A stretch of 64,000 bases of DNA from Acidobacteriaceae bacterium (lineage in GTDB: Bacteria; Acidobacteriota; Terriglobia; Terriglobales; Acidobacteriaceae), in contig PLDC01000019.1 in NCBI GenBank assembly GCA_003134995.1, positions 335,920 through 399,919 of the forward strand, given 5' to 3'. Of this stretch, positions 55,367 through 62,482 are shown piece after piece. Position 1 is the first letter of the stretch. Every line of letters starts with the position of its first letter. The translations under genes were made by a program, and so were the position numbers. A model generated the notes under the pieces. That model was not told the DNA's origin, did not search any database, and saw nothing but the letters and a program-made list of their open reading frames with translations.

Positions 55367-57919
55367 GTGGCCATCAAGATCAAAATCCCGAAAAGCGGCG
55401 GCAAAAGCAGCAAAGGAATCCGCGGCTTACCCCGCGATCCCGTAATTCGCGCCGCATTGATCGTCTTCCTGGTCGTGGCCATCGGCGTCGGCGGATTTCT
55501 CTGCTACTTCTACATCAAGTACGACCGCATTATCGAGCAGCGCTTCCGCACCCCGGTCTTCAGCAATTCCGCCAAAATCTACGCTCTGCCCCGCACCGTG
55601 CACGACGGCGAAAAGGTGGACGTCAAGGAAATTGCCGCCTCCCTGCGCCGAGCCGGATATTCCGAGAAAGACGGCCAGTCGCAACTCGGCACCTTTCACC
55701 TTATAAAAGACGGCATCGAGATCACGCCCGGCCCGGAAAGCTACCACAGCCCGGAAGAAGCCCATATCTCTATTCACGGCGGCCAGATCGAGCACATTAC
55801 CAGCAAAGGCAACGAACTAGCCGCCTACGAGTTGGAGCCGCAACTCGTCACCGCGCTGTTCGACGCTGAGCAACGCTCCAAGCGCCAGGTCGTAAAGTAC
55901 ACCGACATTCCCAAAGTCATGGTCGATGCAGTGCTCGCCATCGAAGACCGCCGCTTTTTCGAGCACAGCGGCGTGAACTTCATCCGCATGGCAGAAGCCG
56001 GATGGATCGATCTCACCCGTCAACGCCACGAGCAAGGCGGATCGACCATTACCATGCAGCTTTCGCGCGGCTTTTTCCTCACGCCGGAAAAAACCATCCG
56101 GCGCAAGCTCACCGAAATGCTGATCGCCGAAGAACTCGAGCAGAAATTCAGCAAGCAGCAGATTTTCGAGTTCTACGGCAACTGGGTCAACCTCGGCCAG
56201 CGCGGATCGTTCGCCATCAGCGGCTTCGGCGAAGCCTCGCGCACCTATTTCAACAAAGACCTGAAAGACATCAGTCTGCCGGAAGCCGCGTTGCTCGCGG
56301 GCATCATCCAGGGACCGAGCCGCCTGTCGCCCTACCGCCATCCCGAGCGCGCCCTCGAGCGCCGCAACCTCGTCCTAGATTCAATGGTAGAAACCCACGC
56401 TATCACCCGCGAGCAAGCCGAGAAGGCAAAAGCCTCGCCGCTGAAGCTCGCGCCTCCAAACGTGGAAGCCGCCGACGCTCCGTATTTCGTCGACATGGTG
56501 CGCGACACGCTGATCAACAAGTTCAGCGAACACGATCTCAACGATCAGTCCTACCGCATCTACACCACGCTCGATCCCGATCTGCAAAAGGCTGCCGCGC
56601 AAGCCGTCGAAACCGGAATCAAGCTGGTCGACGATCAAGTCACCAAGATGCGCACCAAGAAAATTAAAACGGGCAAGAAAGTAGAGACGAAGATCTTACC
56701 CGGCCCGCAAGCGCAGGTAGCGATGGTAGTGCTCGATCCTCACACCGGCGCGGTCCTAGCGCTGGTCGGAGGAAGAGACTACGGCTGGAGCCAGTTAAAC
56801 CACGCCATATCGAAACGCCCGACGGGCTCCATCTTCAAGCCCTTCGTCTACGCCGCCGCCATGAACACTGCGCTAGACGGCTCAGCAACGGTAATCACGC
56901 CAGCCTCGGTCGTAACCGACGCGCCCACCAGCTTCGCCTACGGAGATCAGATCTACGAGCCCCGCAACTACAAAGAGGAATACAAGGGCGACGTAACCCT
57001 GCGTTACGCGCTAGCCATGTCGCTGAATAACGCCACCGTGAAAGTCGCCGAAGAAGTAGGCTACGACAAAGTAGCCGACCTCGCGAAGTCTGCAGGCATC
57101 ACCTCGGTAAAGGCAACTCCAGCCATGGCGCTTGGTTCCTACGACGCTCCTCCCATCGACATGGCCGCAGCCTACACGTCGTTCTCGAACGGTGGCATGC
57201 GCCTTTCCCCAATCCTGGTGAACTCCGTGCGTAACGCCCAGGGCGACGTGATCGCGAACTACAAGACCGACCAGCGCCAGGTCCTCGACCCGCGCATAGC
57301 CTACGTCATGACCAAAATGATGGAAGGCGTAATTAACAACGGCTTGGGCTACACTGCGGTTCGCCTCCGCGGATTCACCTTGCCCGCAGCCGGCAAGACC
57401 GGCAGCTCCCACGACGGCTGGTTCGCCGGATACACCTCCAACTTACTCTGCGTGGTCTGGGTAGGCTACGACGACTACAGCGATCTTCGCCTCAGCGGAG
57501 CCATGACCGCCGCTCCCATCTGGACCGAGTTCATGAAGAAAGCCTCGGCGCTGCCACAGTATTCCGACATGAAAGCCTTCTCCCAGCCCACCGGAGTGGT
57601 CGACGTGCAACTCGACAAAGCCACCAACCGCCTGGCCACGCCAACCTGTCCCGACGATTACGTAGCCGCCTTCGTAGCCGGCACCGAGCCCCGCGACACC
57701 TGCGATCAACCCGCCGGAGTAGCCGGATTCTTCAACCGAGTCTTCGGCGGCGGCGGAGACAAAGCCCTACCGCCTCCAGACTCAGCCAACGCCCAAGACC
57801 CCAACGCCGACCCGCAAAAGAAAAAAGGTTTCTTCGGCAAAATCGCCGGCATCTTCAAAGACGACAAATCCACCCCACCCCCCAAGCCCCCAGACACCAC
57901 CCAAACCTCGCCCCACTAA
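55367..57919 (+). CDS. Class A penicillin-binding protein (PBP1B-like)
   Basis: 850 residues from a GTG start. Short cytoplasmic part, one membrane helix (AALIVFLVVAIGVGGFLCYFYI), and a small PBP1B-type domain (SAKIYALPRTVHDGEKVDVK). The glycosyltransferase domain has AIEDRRFFEHSGVN with catalytic Glu193, GGSTITMQLSRGFFL and RKLTEMLIAEELEQ. The transpeptidase domain has KRPTGSIFKPF with Ser488 and Lys491, SMSLNNATVKV, and AGKTGSSHDGWFAGYT. The tail is Pro/Lys-rich. It polymerises and cross-links peptidoglycan. No MreB or LpoB partner gene adjoins it. Confidence 0.95.
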   Translation: MAIKIKIPKSGGKSSKGIRGLPRDPVIRAALIVFLVVAIGVGGFLCYFYIKYDRIIEQRFRTPVFSNSAKIYALPRTVHDGEKVDVKEIAASLRRAGYSEKDGQSQLGTFHLIKDGIEITPGPESYHSPEEAHISIHGGQIEHITSKGNELAAYELEPQLVTALFDAEQRSKRQVVKYTDIPKVMVDAVLAIEDRRFFEHSGVNFIRMAEAGWIDLTRQRHEQGGSTITMQLSRGFFLTPEKTIRRKLTEMLIAEELEQKFSKQQIFEFYGNWVNLGQRGSFAISGFGEASRTYFNKDLKDISLPEAALLAGIIQGPSRLSPYRHPERALERRNLVLDSMVETHAITREQAEKAKASPLKLAPPNVEAADAPYFVDMVRDTLINKFSEHDLNDQSYRIYTTLDPDLQKAAAQAVETGIKLVDDQVTKMRTKKIKTGKKVETKILPGPQAQVAMVVLDPHTGAVLALVGGRDYGWSQLNHAISKRPTGSIFKPFVYAAAMNTALDGSATVITPASVVTDAPTSFAYGDQIYEPRNYKEEYKGDVTLRYALAMSLNNATVKVAEEVGYDKVADLAKSAGITSVKATPAMALGSYDAPPIDMAAAYTSFSNGGMRLSPILVNSVRNAQGDVIANYKTDQRQVLDPRIAYVMTKMMEGVINNGLGYTAVRLRGFTLPAAGKTGSSHDGWFAGYTSNLLCVVWVGYDDYSDLRLSGAMTAAPIWTEFMKKASALPQYSDMKAFSQPTGVVDVQLDKATNRLATPTCPDDYVAAFVAGTEPRDTCDQPAGVAGFFNRVFGGGGDKALPPPDSANAQDPNADPQKKKGFFGKIAGIFKDDKSTPPPKPPDTTQTSPH

Positions 57920-58064: not shown

Positions 58065-58250
58065 CTAGGATTTCCCGCGGCACGCCAGGCACCAGGATTG
58101 CTTGTGCCAAATGTCTTGACCAGGATAGATGTCATCCCGTTTCCTAGTGCCAAATTCGTCTAGGATCTTGCTCTGCCCACAGCTGGGACACTTGAACACG
58201 CGCTTCCCCTTGGAATTTAATCCATCGTCTCCCCTATGCGATACAAGCAT
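58065..58250 (-). CDS. Small zinc-ribbon protein downstream of the DpnI-like gene
   Basis: 61 residues with two CxxC pairs, CPSCGQ near residue 21 and CLACRG near residue 54, which together could hold one Zn. The rest is charged (SKILDEFGTRKRDDIYPGQD). It starts 103 bp beyond the DpnI-like gene on the same strand. It may be a real accessory gene or a remnant of an HNH-type nuclease; I cannot tell. Confidence 0.45.
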   Translation of the reverse strand: MLVSHRGDDGLNSKGKRVFKCPSCGQSKILDEFGTRKRDDIYPGQDIWHKQSWCLACRGKS

Positions 58251-58353
58251 GCTCCGCCGCAGGGCGGCGCGTCAGGGCGTTATCGGCATAGCAGCGCTCA
58301 GAGTTGCGATAGGGCGGCCAAGTCGGTGAGGCCCCATCCGCTGAGGGTTCCGC

Positions 58354-59124
58354 CTATGGGGACAGCAAGGTATACCGGCCTTGCCCGTCGAACCGGAGTA
58401 GCTGCATGTCACGAAGGATTTGGAGTTGCTGACGGATTTTCGGACGAATATTTTGGTTTCGAGGGTGTCTTCCCTGCAATTCCGCCTCGAAACCGTAGAC
58501 TTCATCCAACGAAAACTGCCGCTTGCCCAACCGTCGCACGGACGCAAGAACATCGACCGTCCATTCCCTCATCGCAGGTGCTACGGACGCGAGTTCACGT
58601 ATCCGGAAGAATTCCTTTCGCACTCGGCTTGCGGGAACTATAGCCCCTCCAGAAACCAAAGCTATCTTCCCGTCCTGAGGGATGCGCTCTAGCAGGATGT
58701 TGCAGCCCACCCATCCTGCTCTGCGCGCCCCTAAATTCAATGGCTTCCGCTTCTCGATTACACTCTCGACGAAGAAAGCTCGTGGAATAAGCAAGAGTTC
58801 TCTCACCAACCACTGCGCTGAGTATTGAAGTATTAGTAGATTGGGCGTGCGATCTTGTCGGATCGCCTCAATCATGGCCGAATACCCGGCGTCTGGGATT
58901 TTCCTTAGATTCCAGCGGTCGGAACTCTTCAACTCAAAAAACTGATTGCACGAGGGACAGATGAAATCCTGGACGCGACTGTTTGGTCGCGCTGGCGCAA
59001 GACCGTCAGAATCGCACGCGGGACAGTACAGCTCACGGCGGCACCAGTCCTCGCTCAGCACCCGGGCGATCTGAGAGCGGGACCTGTAGGCAGCGGCCAG
59101 TCGAACATCACATTGTAGATCCAT
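58354..59124 (-). CDS. DpnI-like methyl-directed (type IIM) restriction endonuclease
   Basis: 256 residues, against 254 in DpnI of Streptococcus pneumoniae. The catalytic residues fall at the same numbers: Asp53, Glu64 and Lys66 in VQDFICPSCNQFFELKS. The zinc-binding cysteines are CPAC (34, 37) and CPSC (56, 59). Other shared parts are SQIARVLSEDWCRRELYCPA, RKPLNLGARRAGWVGCNI and the C-terminal winged-helix segment KIRQQLQILRDMQLLRF. Such enzymes cut GATC only when adenine is methylated, so the host should lack Dam methylation at GATC. No methyltransferase gene adjoins it. It is divergent from the gene at 59215, with 90 bp between starts. Confidence 0.93.
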   Translation of the reverse strand: MDLQCDVRLAAAYRSRSQIARVLSEDWCRRELYCPACDSDGLAPARPNSRVQDFICPSCNQFFELKSSDRWNLRKIPDAGYSAMIEAIRQDRTPNLLILQYSAQWLVRELLLIPRAFFVESVIEKRKPLNLGARRAGWVGCNILLERIPQDGKIALVSGGAIVPASRVRKEFFRIRELASVAPAMREWTVDVLASVRRLGKRQFSLDEVYGFEAELQGRHPRNQNIRPKIRQQLQILRDMQLLRFDGQGRYTLLSP

Positions 59125-59214
59125 GTCCTTACCCGTATGCGGGGACTAAAAGCATTCGTCGAGGAGTTCCGGCCCAAAGAGGTGCGAGTGCAATAATATT
59201 CTAAGGGTAGCCCA

Positions 59215-59571
59215 ATGCGACAAGAGCAATCAAAGCGAAACCCGTCCGTCCGTCAAAATGTCCGAGGCGCTCCATTTCTCATCAACGACAATGTGACGGT
59301 TTGCCGATTAGCAGACGAAACCGCAAACAGTTCATACTTGCGTAAGCGAGGAGTTGTCGAATATTTCAACTACTCGTGTGGCTGCGGTCAAACCTACCCT
59401 AGAGACCCCATGATCGGTGTGCGTTTTGCCAACGGAGAAATAGAGGAGTTCTGGCGCGAGGAACTGAAGACCGTAAAGACTCTTCCGCGCCGAAATTTCA
59501 GCAGCTCGAGCAACCGTCGAGTACGACACCCCGGAGGAGCCGCTGTTTCCCAAGAAATACGACCTGGGTGA
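59215..59571 (+). CDS. Hypothetical protein, probably the N-terminal part of a frameshifted PD-(D/E)XK protein
   Basis: 118 residues as read. Residues 1-85 look like a small beta-barrel of SH3/nitrile-hydratase-beta type (GAPFLINDNVTVCRLADETA, PMIGVRFANGEIEEFWREEL). Past about residue 87 the sequence turns Arg/Ser-rich (RRNFSSSSNRRVRHPGG) and unlike a protein. At that point the +2 frame becomes coding in character and runs into the downstream nuclease-like sequence without its own start. I read this as one gene broken near 59476-59490. Confidence 0.6.
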   Translation: MRQEQSKRNPSVRQNVRGAPFLINDNVTVCRLADETANSSYLRKRGVVEYFNYSCGCGQTYPRDPMIGVRFANGEIEEFWREELKTVKTLPRRNFSSSSNRRVRHPGGAAVSQEIRPG

Positions 59572-60034
59572 ATACAAAAGCGTAGCCAGAAAGGCCCGAG
59601 AAGCGAAGGGCTACCTCAACGTTCTTATTGACGACGCGGCCCGCGAGCGCGCAGACAGCGCCCATCAGATGCTCACAGAATTGGTCGCATCCAAAATTCG
59701 CAGAACAGGTTCGATACCCAAGAACAACAAGTATATTGACCTCTCAGCAGCAATCCGAGACGAACTCTACCTCTTCGAAATGAAGTCCACGACAGACGGA
59801 AACGTACACGGACAAATACGGCGAGCGATCTCGCAGCTTTACGAATACAGATACCTACAGCAACTTCCCGACGCCAAGCTTGTCATCGTAATAGAGAATC
59901 CCCCACCCCGAGAAAAGAAATGGATCGTTGACTATGTGGTTAAAGACCGAAAGCTGCTAATTGCTTGGGACGGTGATCGCAAAACGCTGAAATTCCCACC
60001 GCAGAATGGCGCCGAACTGGAATTTCTCGCATAA
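59477..60034 (+). CDS. PD-(D/E)XK nuclease-like protein, C-terminal part
   Basis: The frame is open from 59477 (after a TAA) to 60034, about 185 residues, but has no ATG, GTG or TTG before the ATG at 59669; a CTG at 59543 has GGAGGAG upstream. The protein reads KKYDLGEYKSVARKAREAKG, then GSIPKNNKYIDLSAAIRDEL, YLFEMKST, and QIRRAISQLYEYRYLQQLPD. The Asp in YIDL followed by Glu-Met-Lys (FEMK) and Gln in HGQIRRAISQL fits the PD-(D/E)XK fold, as in DUF3883-like restriction proteins. It is probably the second half of the gene that begins at 59215. Function: likely DNA restriction partner of the DpnI-like enzyme, by context. Confidence 0.6.
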   Translation, partial: RLFRAEISAARATVEYDTPEEPLFPKKYDLGEYKSVARKAREAKGYLNVLIDDAARERADSAHQMLTELVASKIRRTGSIPKNNKYIDLSAAIRDELYLFEMKSTTDGNVHGQIRRAISQLYEYRYLQQLPDAKLVIVIENPPPREKKWIVDYVVKDRKLLIAWDGDRKTLKFPPQNGAELEFLA

Positions 60035-60468
60035 GAAGCTGAGGCCCGAGCGTCGAGAGAACCCGAAACGACTTTAGAGTTTTCCACAGGCCCATTGTGA
60101 CATCTGACCTTGCGCCGCACATCGAACCTGCGCAATCATGGCTGAGGCAGCGACTATCGGGAAAACACCCAGGCGTCAGCCGCTAAGTCCTTTGCTGTCT
60201 AATTTTAGCATCTAAGTCCTTTAGGCCCTGGATTTTGCGGGCCAAAACATGCCTAACCCGATGATTCCAGATATCGAGGGGGTGGGGAGGGGTACCCAGT
60301 GGGTGGTGCAGACCGGGAGCATCCCTGACAAAACAGACCGGGCGGATTACCCGACACTGTGATCGACCAGCGAGGCGCGTACCGAAAATCGGGAACTGAA
60401 GGCTGAGAGCTGAAAGCTGAGAGCTGAGAGCTGAGCTAGAAGCTAGGAGCCAGAAGCTGGAAGCTAAA
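60035..60468. other. 434-bp spacer with heptamer arrays
   Basis: Arrays at 60396-60434 (GCTGAGA, GCTGAAA, GCTGAGA, GCTGAGA, GCTGAGC) and 60432-60465 (GCTAGAAGCTAGGAGCCAGA, AGCTGGAAGCTA). The middle part (60270-60360) is G-rich with GGGGGTGGGGAGGGG but shows no gene. The second array resembles the inverse of that at 35914-35951. Confidence 0.55.
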
Positions 60469-61425
60469 TCACGAACTCCCAATCAGCCAGCCCGTGATGA
60501 AAACCAAAACGCCACCCAACCCGACCTGCAGCGCCGCCGAAACCCAAGGACTGTCCATGAAACGATGTCGAACCCAGGTAATCGCAGCCAATTCGGCAAC
60601 CACAACCGCACCAGCCGCCCACAGCGCCTGGTGGAAGTCGCGCAGCAGAAACGGCAGAGTATGACCAATTCCGCCCACAGCAGTCATCGCCCCGCAAATT
60701 ACGCCCCGAACCCAGGGATGACCGCGACCAGTCAAGCTGCCATCATCGGAAAGCGCCTCAGCGAAGCCCATGCTGATGCCCGCTCCCGCCGATGCGGCCA
60801 GGCCCACGCGAAAGGCATCCCAACTGTTGGTTGTGGCGAACGCGGCGGCGAAAACGGGCGCGAGCGTGGACACGGAACCATCCATCAGGCCCGCAAGGCC
60901 GGGTTGCACGATCTGCAGAACGAAGAGCCGGCGTTGCGCCCGCTCTTCATCTTCCTTCACGTTTTCGGGAAGTTTTTCTTTGTCGAGTTCTTGCGCGCGC
61001 TCTTCGTGCTCGCGTTCTTCATTGATCAGGTCGTCGAGCAATTGCCGGATGCTGGCGTCCTGCGTGCGCGCCGCGGCTTTTTCGTAAAATCTCCGCGTCT
61101 CCACTTCCATTGTGCTGGCTTCCTTGCGCACCGCTTCAATGCGCAACGGACGAATCAGCCACAGCGCAGGACGTTCCACAAATCCACGCACATCCTGCCG
61201 TCGAATCAATGGAATGTGTTCGCCAAACTTCAGCCGGTACATTTCAATCAGTTTTCTACGATGGGTTGACTCTTCTTCGCGCATGCCTTCGAACATCGCC
61301 GCCGATGCTGGATAATCCTGCCGCAATCCTTCGGCGAAATCGGAATACACACGCTCGTCTTCCTCTTCCAGGGAAATAGCCAGAGCCAGCACTTCGCGTT
61401 CGCTGAGTTCCTGAAACTTCTTCAT
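60469..61425 (-). CDS. mbfA: Membrane-bound ferritin MbfA (rubrerythrin-VIT1 fusion)
   Basis: 318 residues. The N-terminal 150 residues are a rubrerythrin-like four-helix diiron domain with the expected Glu ligands ([63 protein letters not shown]). The C-terminal half is a VIT1/CCC1-type iron and manganese exporter ([54 protein letters not shown]). The MbfA family exports iron and protects against H2O2. Any iron-response operator upstream was not identified. Confidence 0.93.
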
Positions 61426-61534: not shown

Positions 61535-62482
61535 ATGCCGCCACGGAAATCGTCTGCAACGCGGAAGCGCGCGAAACCGCCTCGCCGCGGGAAGACAAAA
61601 GCGCAGGCCATCGCGCACGAAGCTCCGCATGCTCCGGAACTTGTCATCATCACGGGGATGAGCGGATCCGGCAAAGCGTCTGTGCTGAAAGCCTTTGAGG
61701 ATCTCGGTTATTACTGCGTCGATAACCTTCCCGTCGAACTGATCCCGCGCTTCGCGGAGATGGCGTTGCAATCGAGCGAAATTCGCCGCACTGCGTTGGT
61801 CGTGGATGTGCGCGAAGGTTCTAAGCTCGAGAAACTGCCGGGAATCCTGAAGGCAGTTCGGCGTTTGATTCCGACCAAGGTCGCATTCCTCGAAGCCTCC
61901 GACGCAGTGTTACTGCGGCGCTTCAGCGAGACGCGCCGTCCTCATCCGTTGGGCACAGACGCGCCTGTGAATGCATCGCTCAAGACTGAGAGACGGCATT
62001 TGGCAGCGATTCGCGCACTGGCTGACATCGTCATCGATACGTCGAAGTTCAACGTGCACGAGTTGCGTGCCCACATCACCGAGCGTTTCCGCGAGCAGGC
62101 GACGGAGAAAAGCATTCTGGTTTCGAGCGTAAGCTTCGGATTTCGCCACGGTGTTCCGGAAGACGCTGATTTAGTCTTCGACGTTCGCTTTCTGCCGAAC
62201 CCTCATTTCGTTCCTGAATTCCGGCCGCTTACAGGCCGTCATCCGCGCGTGGCAAAATATATCCGTTCGTTCCCGCAAACGCAGGAGTTCATCCACCGCA
62301 TTTCCGATCTGTTGATTTACCTGCTTCCGCACTACGTTCATGAAGGCAAGAGCTATCTCACAATTGGCTTCGGTTGCACTGGCGGTCAGCACCGTTCCGT
62401 GATGATCGCCGAAGAAGTAGGCAAACGCCTGCACCAAGCTGGATACCGCGTTAAGGTCGTGCATCGGGATATGCCGAAATAG
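61535..62482 (+). CDS. rapZ: RNase adapter protein RapZ
   Basis: 315 residues with a basic N-terminal extension (PPRKSSATRKRAKPPRRGKT). The P-loop part (VIITGMSGSGKASVLKAFED, YYCVDNLPVELIP) is followed by LRRFSETRRPHPLG, the C-terminal ligand-binding domain with SFGFRHGVPEDADLVFDVRF, LPNPHFVPEFRPLTG and TIGFGCTGGQHRSVMIAEEV. In E. coli RapZ senses glucosamine-6-phosphate and steers RNase E; the role here is inferred. The Walker A ends GKA rather than the usual GKS/T. Confidence 0.95.
   Translation: MPPRKSSATRKRAKPPRRGKTKAQAIAHEAPHAPELVIITGMSGSGKASVLKAFEDLGYYCVDNLPVELIPRFAEMALQSSEIRRTALVVDVREGSKLEKLPGILKAVRRLIPTKVAFLEASDAVLLRRFSETRRPHPLGTDAPVNASLKTERRHLAAIRALADIVIDTSKFNVHELRAHITERFREQATEKSILVSSVSFGFRHGVPEDADLVFDVRFLPNPHFVPEFRPLTGRHPRVAKYIRSFPQTQEFIHRISDLLIYLLPHYVHEGKSYLTIGFGCTGGQHRSVMIAEEVGKRLHQAGYRVKVVHRDMPK

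Follow-up and report, generated by a model that had tools for sequence, protein, structure and literature searches.

A DpnI-type restriction endonuclease gene in an acidobacterial genome adjoins a CarS-like SH3 gene and a remnant of a restriction-modification operon

Does a dpnI-like gene in an acidobacterial genome, with no methyltransferase gene beside it, encode a methyl-directed restriction enzyme, how would the DNA of its host escape such an enzyme, and do the adjoining genes have anything to do with it? The gene lies in a window of 64,000 nucleotides, the whole stretch of DNA analysed here (contig C23:335920-399919), which belongs to an assembly of 5.62 Mb in 29 contigs with a completeness score of 100 and a contamination score of 0.03. 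We consider it very probable that the product of the gene is a methyl-directed restriction endonuclease of the DpnI type (type IIM) that stands alone. The computations that bear on this cover homology, the residues of the active site, base reading, methyl pocket and winged helix, the fold, the patchy spread of the gene and the absence of Dam-family matches in the host. An earlier note on this DNA had described the gene as a DpnI homologue, and had overlooked the CarS-like gene and the restriction-modification remnant that adjoin it; the value added here lies in the recurrence of such a CarS-like neighbour and in the restriction-modification remnants found at the borders of dpnI genes.

The open reading frame at 58354-59124 (minus strand) starts with ATG and encodes a protein of 256 amino acids, within 2 residues of the length of DpnI, as had been stated. 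Against Pfam it matches DpnI (PF06044, 4e-56, residues 1-179) and DpnI_C (PF17726, 2.8e-24, residues 186-251), the endonuclease domain and the winged helix thus being joined in one chain of ~255 residues. The PADLOC model mREase_II matches the same frame at 8.4e-71, and a search of the PDB returned DpnI (4esj, 1.9e-57, aligned over 1-252) as the sole sequence at E ≤0.001; NCBIfam gave nothing above cut-off. In a pairwise BLAST alignment 96 of 251 positions (38%) are identical to DpnI with no gaps, so that DpnI numbering can be applied to the window protein. Asp53, Glu64, Lys66 and the four cysteines (34, 37, 56 and 59), which we take to be zinc ligands, are identical in the two proteins, as the earlier note had read them. 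An AlphaFold model of the window protein (pLDDT 91.6) retrieved DpnI chains from the PDB at Foldseek ranks 1-3, with TM scores of 0.88/0.94 for 4esj_B. Chance can be ruled out for the match, and the DpnI-type identity of the protein encoded at exactly these coordinates is supported by Pfam, PADLOC, PDB, alignment and modelled fold alike.

The predicted catalytic PD-(D/E)XK domain (residues 1-182, limits from PMC4117772) occupies 58579-59124 on the minus strand, as judged from PF06044 and the residue comparison, and contains Asp53, Glu64, Lys66, Arg126, Leu129, Arg135 and Trp138; within it, Cys34, Cys37, Asp53, Cys56, Cys59, Glu64 and Lys66 span 58927-59025 on the same strand, the first cysteine and the catalytic lysine marking the two ends. 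The DpnI_C or winged-helix part follows at 58372-58578 (minus strand; PF17726 and pairwise alignment). For the comparison we took 20 positions: the functional residues given in PMC4117772, the four cysteines and Asn77. In the sections of that account that deal with them, catalysis is assigned to Asp53, Glu64, Leu65 (through its main chain) and Lys66, reading of the G:C pairs to Asn48, Arg126, Arg135, Asp78 and Ser17, together with Gln18, the methyl pocket to Leu129, Arg135 and Trp138 with Gly140, and winged-helix contacts to Lys229 and Arg231 (PMC4117772). Besides the catalytic triad and the cysteines, the window protein shares Ser17, Gln18, Asn48, Leu65, Asp78, Arg126, Leu129, Arg135, Trp138, Gly140, Lys229 and Arg231 with DpnI, so that the GATC-reading set (Ser17, Gln18, Asn48, Asp78, Arg126, Arg135) and the methyl-pocket set (Leu129, Arg135, Trp138, Gly140) are both kept whole. 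The sole exception among the 20 is Asn77, which is replaced by Pro and whose contact in DpnI is said to contribute nothing to specificity (PMC4117772). Across 118 aligned rows of the dpnI family, position 64 holds Glu in 68 rows and Gln in 49 (for example in L016), with a gap in 1.

As such the window enzyme is ordinary, one more member of the DpnI family. It resembles DpnI of Streptococcus pneumoniae (dpnC), a type IIM/IIE Gm6ATC endonuclease, in length, in its gap-free alignment, in its two-domain fold and in 19 of the 20 positions compared, and differs in its setting: the gene is acidobacterial, a divergent CarS-like gene and a restriction-modification remnant adjoin it, and no dpnD lies next to it in the list of open reading frames, inspected by eye. 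FcyTI and Psp4BI, PD-(D/E)XK-wH enzymes that are likewise DpnI homologues, are 58-59% identical to DpnI, against 38% for the window protein, which is known here from its sequence; FcyTI cuts within Gm6ATC and is toxic in Dam+ E. coli (PMC11037411).

By analogy, a DpnI-type enzyme would cut incoming Gm6ATC DNA, such as that of Dam+ bacteria and of phages grown in them, and would leave alone the DNA of a host that, as predicted here, lacks a GATC adenine methylase. We infer that the window enzyme cuts, that GATC in its host is unmethylated and that the system serves in defence. The genome-wide check for Dam-like methyltransferases that the earlier note had proposed gave no D12 (Dam/DpnM class) match in the host assembly, where 4 of 14 control genomes matched, and no match to the phage Dam family PF05869, which an E. 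coli control did match. To our knowledge, the methylases that place m6A on both strands of GATC are of the D12 or the DpnA-like kind. MT-A70 was also without a match in the host, but as it had none in any control genome either, this search shows nothing. The host's methylase matches all lie off the window's stretch of contig C23, in agreement with the statement that no methyltransferase is beside the gene.

Other methylases are present. Four host matches belong to the N6_N4 (beta) class: two have a nuclease next to them, of the SmaI family in one case (1.6e-76) and of the HindIII family in the other (4.8e-101), and we take the sites to be CCCGGG and AAGCTT, respectively, not GATC; a third (L014, G000:C15:100264-100425) is apparently broken, only the first 53 model positions being matched; and the fourth, L015, is unassigned. 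N6_Mtase (type I) matches were found on contigs C1, C4 and C21, of which the one on C21 presumably resembles PrmC, and the Eco57I matches coincide with the places on C1 and C21. None of these matches speaks for methylation of GATC, but since type I methylases and L015 remain, an unmethylated-GATC genome is a supported prediction and not a fact.

These remaining methylases bear on another explanation, in which the window protein has drifted to a different methylated target or become inactive and the host methylates GATC with an enzyme that the family searches missed. Conflicts of this sort do exist, fewer than 100 potential genomic conflicts being reported among more than 1,000 wH fusion enzymes in the portion of PMC11037411 that treats them, and the host shows no strong avoidance of GATC, with 697 sites observed against 785 expected in a 126-kb sample (0.89). 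A count so near expectation does not discriminate between the readings. Against this explanation stand the conservation of 19 of 20 residues for G:C reading, methyl holding, cutting and winged-helix binding, and the zero D12 and zero PF05869 matches in an assembly scored as 100% complete; we regard it as very unlikely, and the prediction of unmethylated GATC made in the earlier note as supported by the sequence searches.

Within the Acidobacteriota (phylum sample) dpnI was found in 11 of 396 genomes, and in the family sample in 48 of 398, 46 of them above the curated cut-off; stretches around dpnI were examined for 45 of these 48, G637, G439 and G520 being left out as weak or fragmentary matches. 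The acidobacterial context claimed for the gene holds, as a genome of the same genus (G660) has the same dpnI stretch as the Acidobacteriaceae bacterium contig L052. Outside these samples dpnI is very common: a wider scan gave at least 549 confirmed stretches, and the best 80 of these at least 549 include archaea. Because the best 80 were taken, the locus set leans towards close relatives. It comprises 121 unique loci out of 129 (1.29 Mb), after removal of L024 and L025, which had no dpnI above threshold, and of 6 duplicates; a quick tree was built from 117 of them plus DpnI, leaving out L021, L037, L183 and L185, which have too little dpnI in one frame. Stand-alone genes are the rule in such families, 87% of more than 1,000 wH endonucleases having no methylase gene within three genes in either direction (PMC11037411, in part). 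Where excerpts of the open-licence literature join Acidobacteri-, DpnI, GATC and methylation, they concern DpnII digestion of sediment DNA and not DpnI genes.

The window dpnI was probably gained horizontally, and we regard this as the likeliest origin. Beyond the adjoining genes, the locus is flanked at 60469-61425 (minus strand) and 61535-62482 (plus strand) by conserved neighbours, which we take to be a rubrerythrin/VIT-like and a RapZ-like gene, respectively. All 11 members of the genus searched have the VIT-like gene, with the RapZ-like gene beside it in 10 of the 11 stretches, and dpnI, the CarS-like gene and the nuclease were absent from all 11 over the ~4.5 kb on that side of the VIT-like gene. 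As the window's other flank (55367-57919) is missing from the same 11 stretches, the spot beside the VIT-like gene is itself variable. In G518, dpnI lies ~54 kb from the shared VIT-like flank on the same contig. A search of plasmid records gave two matches, both from Neisseria gonorrhoeae and, being longer than 2 Mb, probably chromosomes; phage records gave none at 1e-10, and in a viral scan five loci matched, residues 184-254 being the most that was covered among the matches listed. The idea that dpnI excludes D12 genes genome-wide was rejected in the phylum sample, where D12 genes occur in 5 of 11 dpnI-positive genomes and in 172 of 385 others; D12 is a broad family, so this comparison is no test of GATC methylases as such.

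On its 5' side, dpnI is followed first by a small divergent gene, whose relatives recur beside dpnI in unrelated genomes, and then by the broken nuclease of a restriction-modification operon; the locus looks like a site of restriction exchange. The small gene occupies the plus-strand frame 59215-59571, with its conserved part at ~59230-59478; beyond the conserved part the frame continues, out of frame, into the nuclease remnant. The 90 bp between the divergent start codons of the two genes (59125-59214) hold no repeat pair, and a consensus scan of 58100-60200 found no sigma-70-type promoter site.

By profile and predicted fold, the protein of 59215-59571 is related to the myxobacterial antirepressor CarS and has an SH3 fold. 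On its own it scores 24.0 bits against PF18354, just below the cut-off of 25 (E 3.8e-5), and in a PF18354 scan with an E limit of 1 all four CarS-like members scanned matched, the best at 5e-10. A profile of four relatives retrieved CarS from the PDB (2kss) at 6.4e-10, and one of seven did so at 5.5e-12 with nearly the whole domain aligned. The AlphaFold model is small and all-beta (pLDDT 81); Foldseek placed 2kss third (E 0.018, probability 1.00, TM 0.58/0.62), outranked by two PetP chains, with no match under E 0.001. The likeness to CarS of Myxococcus xanthus (PF18354, PDB 2KSS) thus covers profile and SH3-like fold, and the differences are a CGCGQ motif in the window protein that is missing from CarS in the profile alignment, the place beside dpnI, and charge, CarS being described as highly acidic (PMC8156234, in part) and the window protein being basic.

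CarS-like genes adjoin dpnI in 5 of the 121 unique dpnI loci listed, in four arrangements and three phyla, the conserved part lying 3, 16, 16, 100 or 105 bp from the dpnI match. In another genus of the window's own family (G539, locus L160) the gene is divergent from dpnI, as in the window; in an Acidobacteriales locus (L038) it lies upstream on the same strand with overlapping frames; in Zixibacteria (L082) it lies downstream, again with overlapping frames, and is cut by the contig end; and in Spirosoma (L067) it is convergent with dpnI, the frames overlapping once more. Three of these relatives came from comparing the window frame with the open reading frames of the first 90 dpnI loci, and the fourth, in G539, from 38 further dpnI stretches searched with a profile; as the profile was built from the other four dpnI-linked copies, only the G539 copy was found afresh by it. 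The frame is open and conserved in all five loci (L082 being cut by the contig end), and no further CarS-like gene was found elsewhere in the 1.29 Mb of dpnI loci scanned. On the quick tree of 118 dpnI proteins the association takes five changes, and well-supported branches force at least three (group table, 105 rows left out). In the phylum sample the profile matched 1 of 396 Acidobacteriota genomes, the window's own. The other 116 of the 121 loci listed are without a CarS-like neighbour, which means that DpnI does not need one; at least 400 bp of 5' flank was available in 112 of the 121 and at least 400 bp of 3' flank likewise in 112.

What might such a neighbour do? CarS is SH3-like in fold and mimics operator DNA by means of an acid-lined pocket, with which it sequesters the winged-helix domain of CarA; it acts on CarA and CarH (PMC8156234, in part). 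DpnI, for its part, ends in a Gm6ATC-specific winged helix, in which mutations also weaken DNA binding by the catalytic domain, according to the section of PMC4117772 that reports them. Because CarS sequesters a winged helix and DpnI ends in one, the CarS-like protein is a natural candidate for a DpnI modulator: by analogy, it may bind DpnI and modulate it, for example through the winged helix, as CarS does with that of CarA. We hold such a DpnI-binding role to be possible, though on the improbable side. The fuller proposal is offered just as tentatively, and would have CarS-like SH3 proteins as dedicated partners of some DpnI-type enzymes, restraining or tuning them through their DNA-binding face, with CarS itself an offshoot of an older family linked to phages and defence. 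If this were true, a modification-dependent restriction enzyme would come with a control protein of its own, the CarS-like protein, and CarS would not have been born in the myxobacteria. In the parts of two accounts that address its origin, CarS homologues are stated to be confined to myxobacteria (PMC9304148, PMC8156234), and CarS is described as small and taxonomically restricted, with traits attributed to the products of de novo genes (PMC9304148). The matches reported here widen the CarS family to Acidobacteriota, Bacteroidota, Zixibacteria and viral contigs. In the open-licence literature we found no report that links CarS or SH3 proteins with DpnI; where SH3 is mentioned alongside DpnI in the excerpts concerned, it is an endolysin domain.

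The same enzyme could equally well have no functional link to what lies beside it, the CarS-like gene and the nuclease remnant being passive debris or cargo of a variable restriction spot. We judge this reading to be as probable as its negation. The nuclease part is clearly debris, half of it being gone and with it a start of its own, and members of the genus differ at the spot beside the VIT-like gene. Gene order and strand vary between the loci that join CarS-like genes and dpnI. CarS-like genes also occur in three viral contigs with no dpnI match in the sequence examined there, so the gene can travel alone. Charge speaks for passivity too: the window copy, with a net charge of +4 by residue count, lacks the highly acidic character of CarS, and among its relatives the charge is +3 in G539, -1 in L038, -9 in L067 and 0 in L082, whose gene breaks off at the contig end. 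Mere cargo is harder to reconcile with a frame that stays open and conserved in five of five dpnI loci although the gene is rare (1 of 396 genomes), with a conserved part that is always within 105 bp of dpnI and frames that overlap it in L038, L082 and L067, and with an association that takes five changes on the dpnI tree. A recurrent small companion gene would make the control of potentially suicidal, mostly stand-alone modification-dependent enzymes directly testable in E. coli.

The viral CarS-like SH3 proteins are encoded at L115:3603-3827, L116:5974-6198 and L117:6013-6237; two are short and very acidic (-11 and -12), and the third makes up the C-terminal portion of a larger protein. A possible role for these proteins is DNA mimicry against restriction. 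The L067 protein, used as query at 1e-3, found no match among plasmid records (72,556) or phage records (50,697).

The second neighbour, at 59495-60034 on the plus strand, is the last half of the nuclease of a D12-D12-nuclease restriction-modification operon, and is 63% identical over 172 amino acids to the copy in G720. Its first in-frame start is the ATG at 59669, which corresponds to about residue 222 of the intact protein. That protein in G720 has 344 amino acids, with a DUF7226 domain at the N-terminus and a C-terminal half that carries a conserved FEMKS motif and that we read from its sequence as PD-(D/E)XK-like; it gave no PDB or PADLOC match. A single fused SH3-nuclease gene over 59215-60034 was considered and rejected, since the SH3 protein stands alone in G539 and L038 and the nuclease has another N-terminal half, without SH3, in G720, G105 and G283. 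In these last three genomes the nuclease gene closes a row of three adjacent genes that opens with two D12 methylases (assigned by Pfam on the G720 copies), of which the first in G720 has DpnM as its closest PDB match (5.9e-62); the two G720 methylases match one half each of a fused PADLOC type II methylase model. Intact operons also lie at L197:2705-5632 and L198:2900-5833. As a query the nuclease found two plasmid records at 34-35% identity and one viral contig.

Matches to the nuclease occur in 9 of 396 genomes of the phylum sample, four of them strong (<1e-60): two are intact operons in genomes with no dpnI match (G105 and G283), and two are remnants beside dpnI (G307 and the window). In G307, dpnI and dpnD (PF14207) lie between an N-terminal D12 remnant and a C-terminal nuclease remnant, and in G720 the converse is seen, a whole operon (L183:4415-8451) standing downstream of a dpnI that is broken off near residue 138. 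In G539 a nuclease scrap lies behind the SH3 gene, separated from it by an open reading frame that we take to be transposase-like. Weaker nuclease matches flank dpnI in L075, L079 and L170, and L075 also has a C-truncated D12 gene at dpnI. Five of the 121 loci listed, in Acidobacteriota, Zixibacteria and Bacteroidota, have an N-terminal D12 remnant directly upstream of dpnI, at its 5' end (L022:7521-7739, L023:8559-8699, L083:599-817, L108:6828-6986 and L110:6820-6963); these remnants are DpnM-like, cover model positions 9-86 of 280, and lie on the same strand as dpnI at gaps of 2-37 bp.

By analogy, such border remnants resemble the Neisseria drg gene at dam and the DpnI/DpnII alternatives of pneumococcus (PMC3573125, in part). 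Drg/NmeBII, the dam-replacing gene, is likewise a DpnI-like endonuclease at a site where a methylase-bearing locus has been lost, with the difference that in Neisseria the insertion is in dam (PMC516771, in part) and the window remnant is the nuclease of a D12-D12-nuclease operon. With the broken methylase and nuclease genes found at the borders of dpnI, this dam-replacing pattern reaches into several phyla. Such broken genes invite a third explanation, that dpnI replaced a restriction-modification operon through incompatibility, the operon's D12 marking GATC, as in DpnI/DpnII and drg/dam. The arrangement in G307, the reciprocal states in G720, G105 and G283, the closeness of the G720 D12 to DpnM and the five D12 remnants at dpnI 5' ends all favour it, as does the report that drg, inserted at dam, and dam are mutually exclusive genotypes (PMC516771, in part). 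Yet two D12 methylases with one nuclease would point away from GATC and towards a type IIS-like, asymmetric site; the window's own locus gave no D12 remnant; and the seven dpnI loci that bear D12 genes group together on the tree, so that their borders may partly have been inherited together. Nor is GATC depleted around the intact operons of G105 (46 observed against 37 expected) and G283 (58 against 53), although it is in the G720 operon stretch (22 against 36), each a sample of 8-9 kb. Plain GATC as the operon's target is accordingly not supported, with G105 and G283 against it and G720 for it in these small samples, and we consider replacement through incompatibility rather unlikely.

Two further D12-bearing cases may be added. 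In a Flavobacterium MAG (L063:5997-6998) a nearly whole D12 gene with a DPPY motif lies immediately upstream of a dpnI that seems to be whole; if the methylase marks GATC, the two could be in genomic conflict. The genome G009 carries dpnI together with six D12 matches, and in its stretches, which include L023, GATC occurs 19 times against 129 expected in 26.6 kb, with GGCC depleted too.
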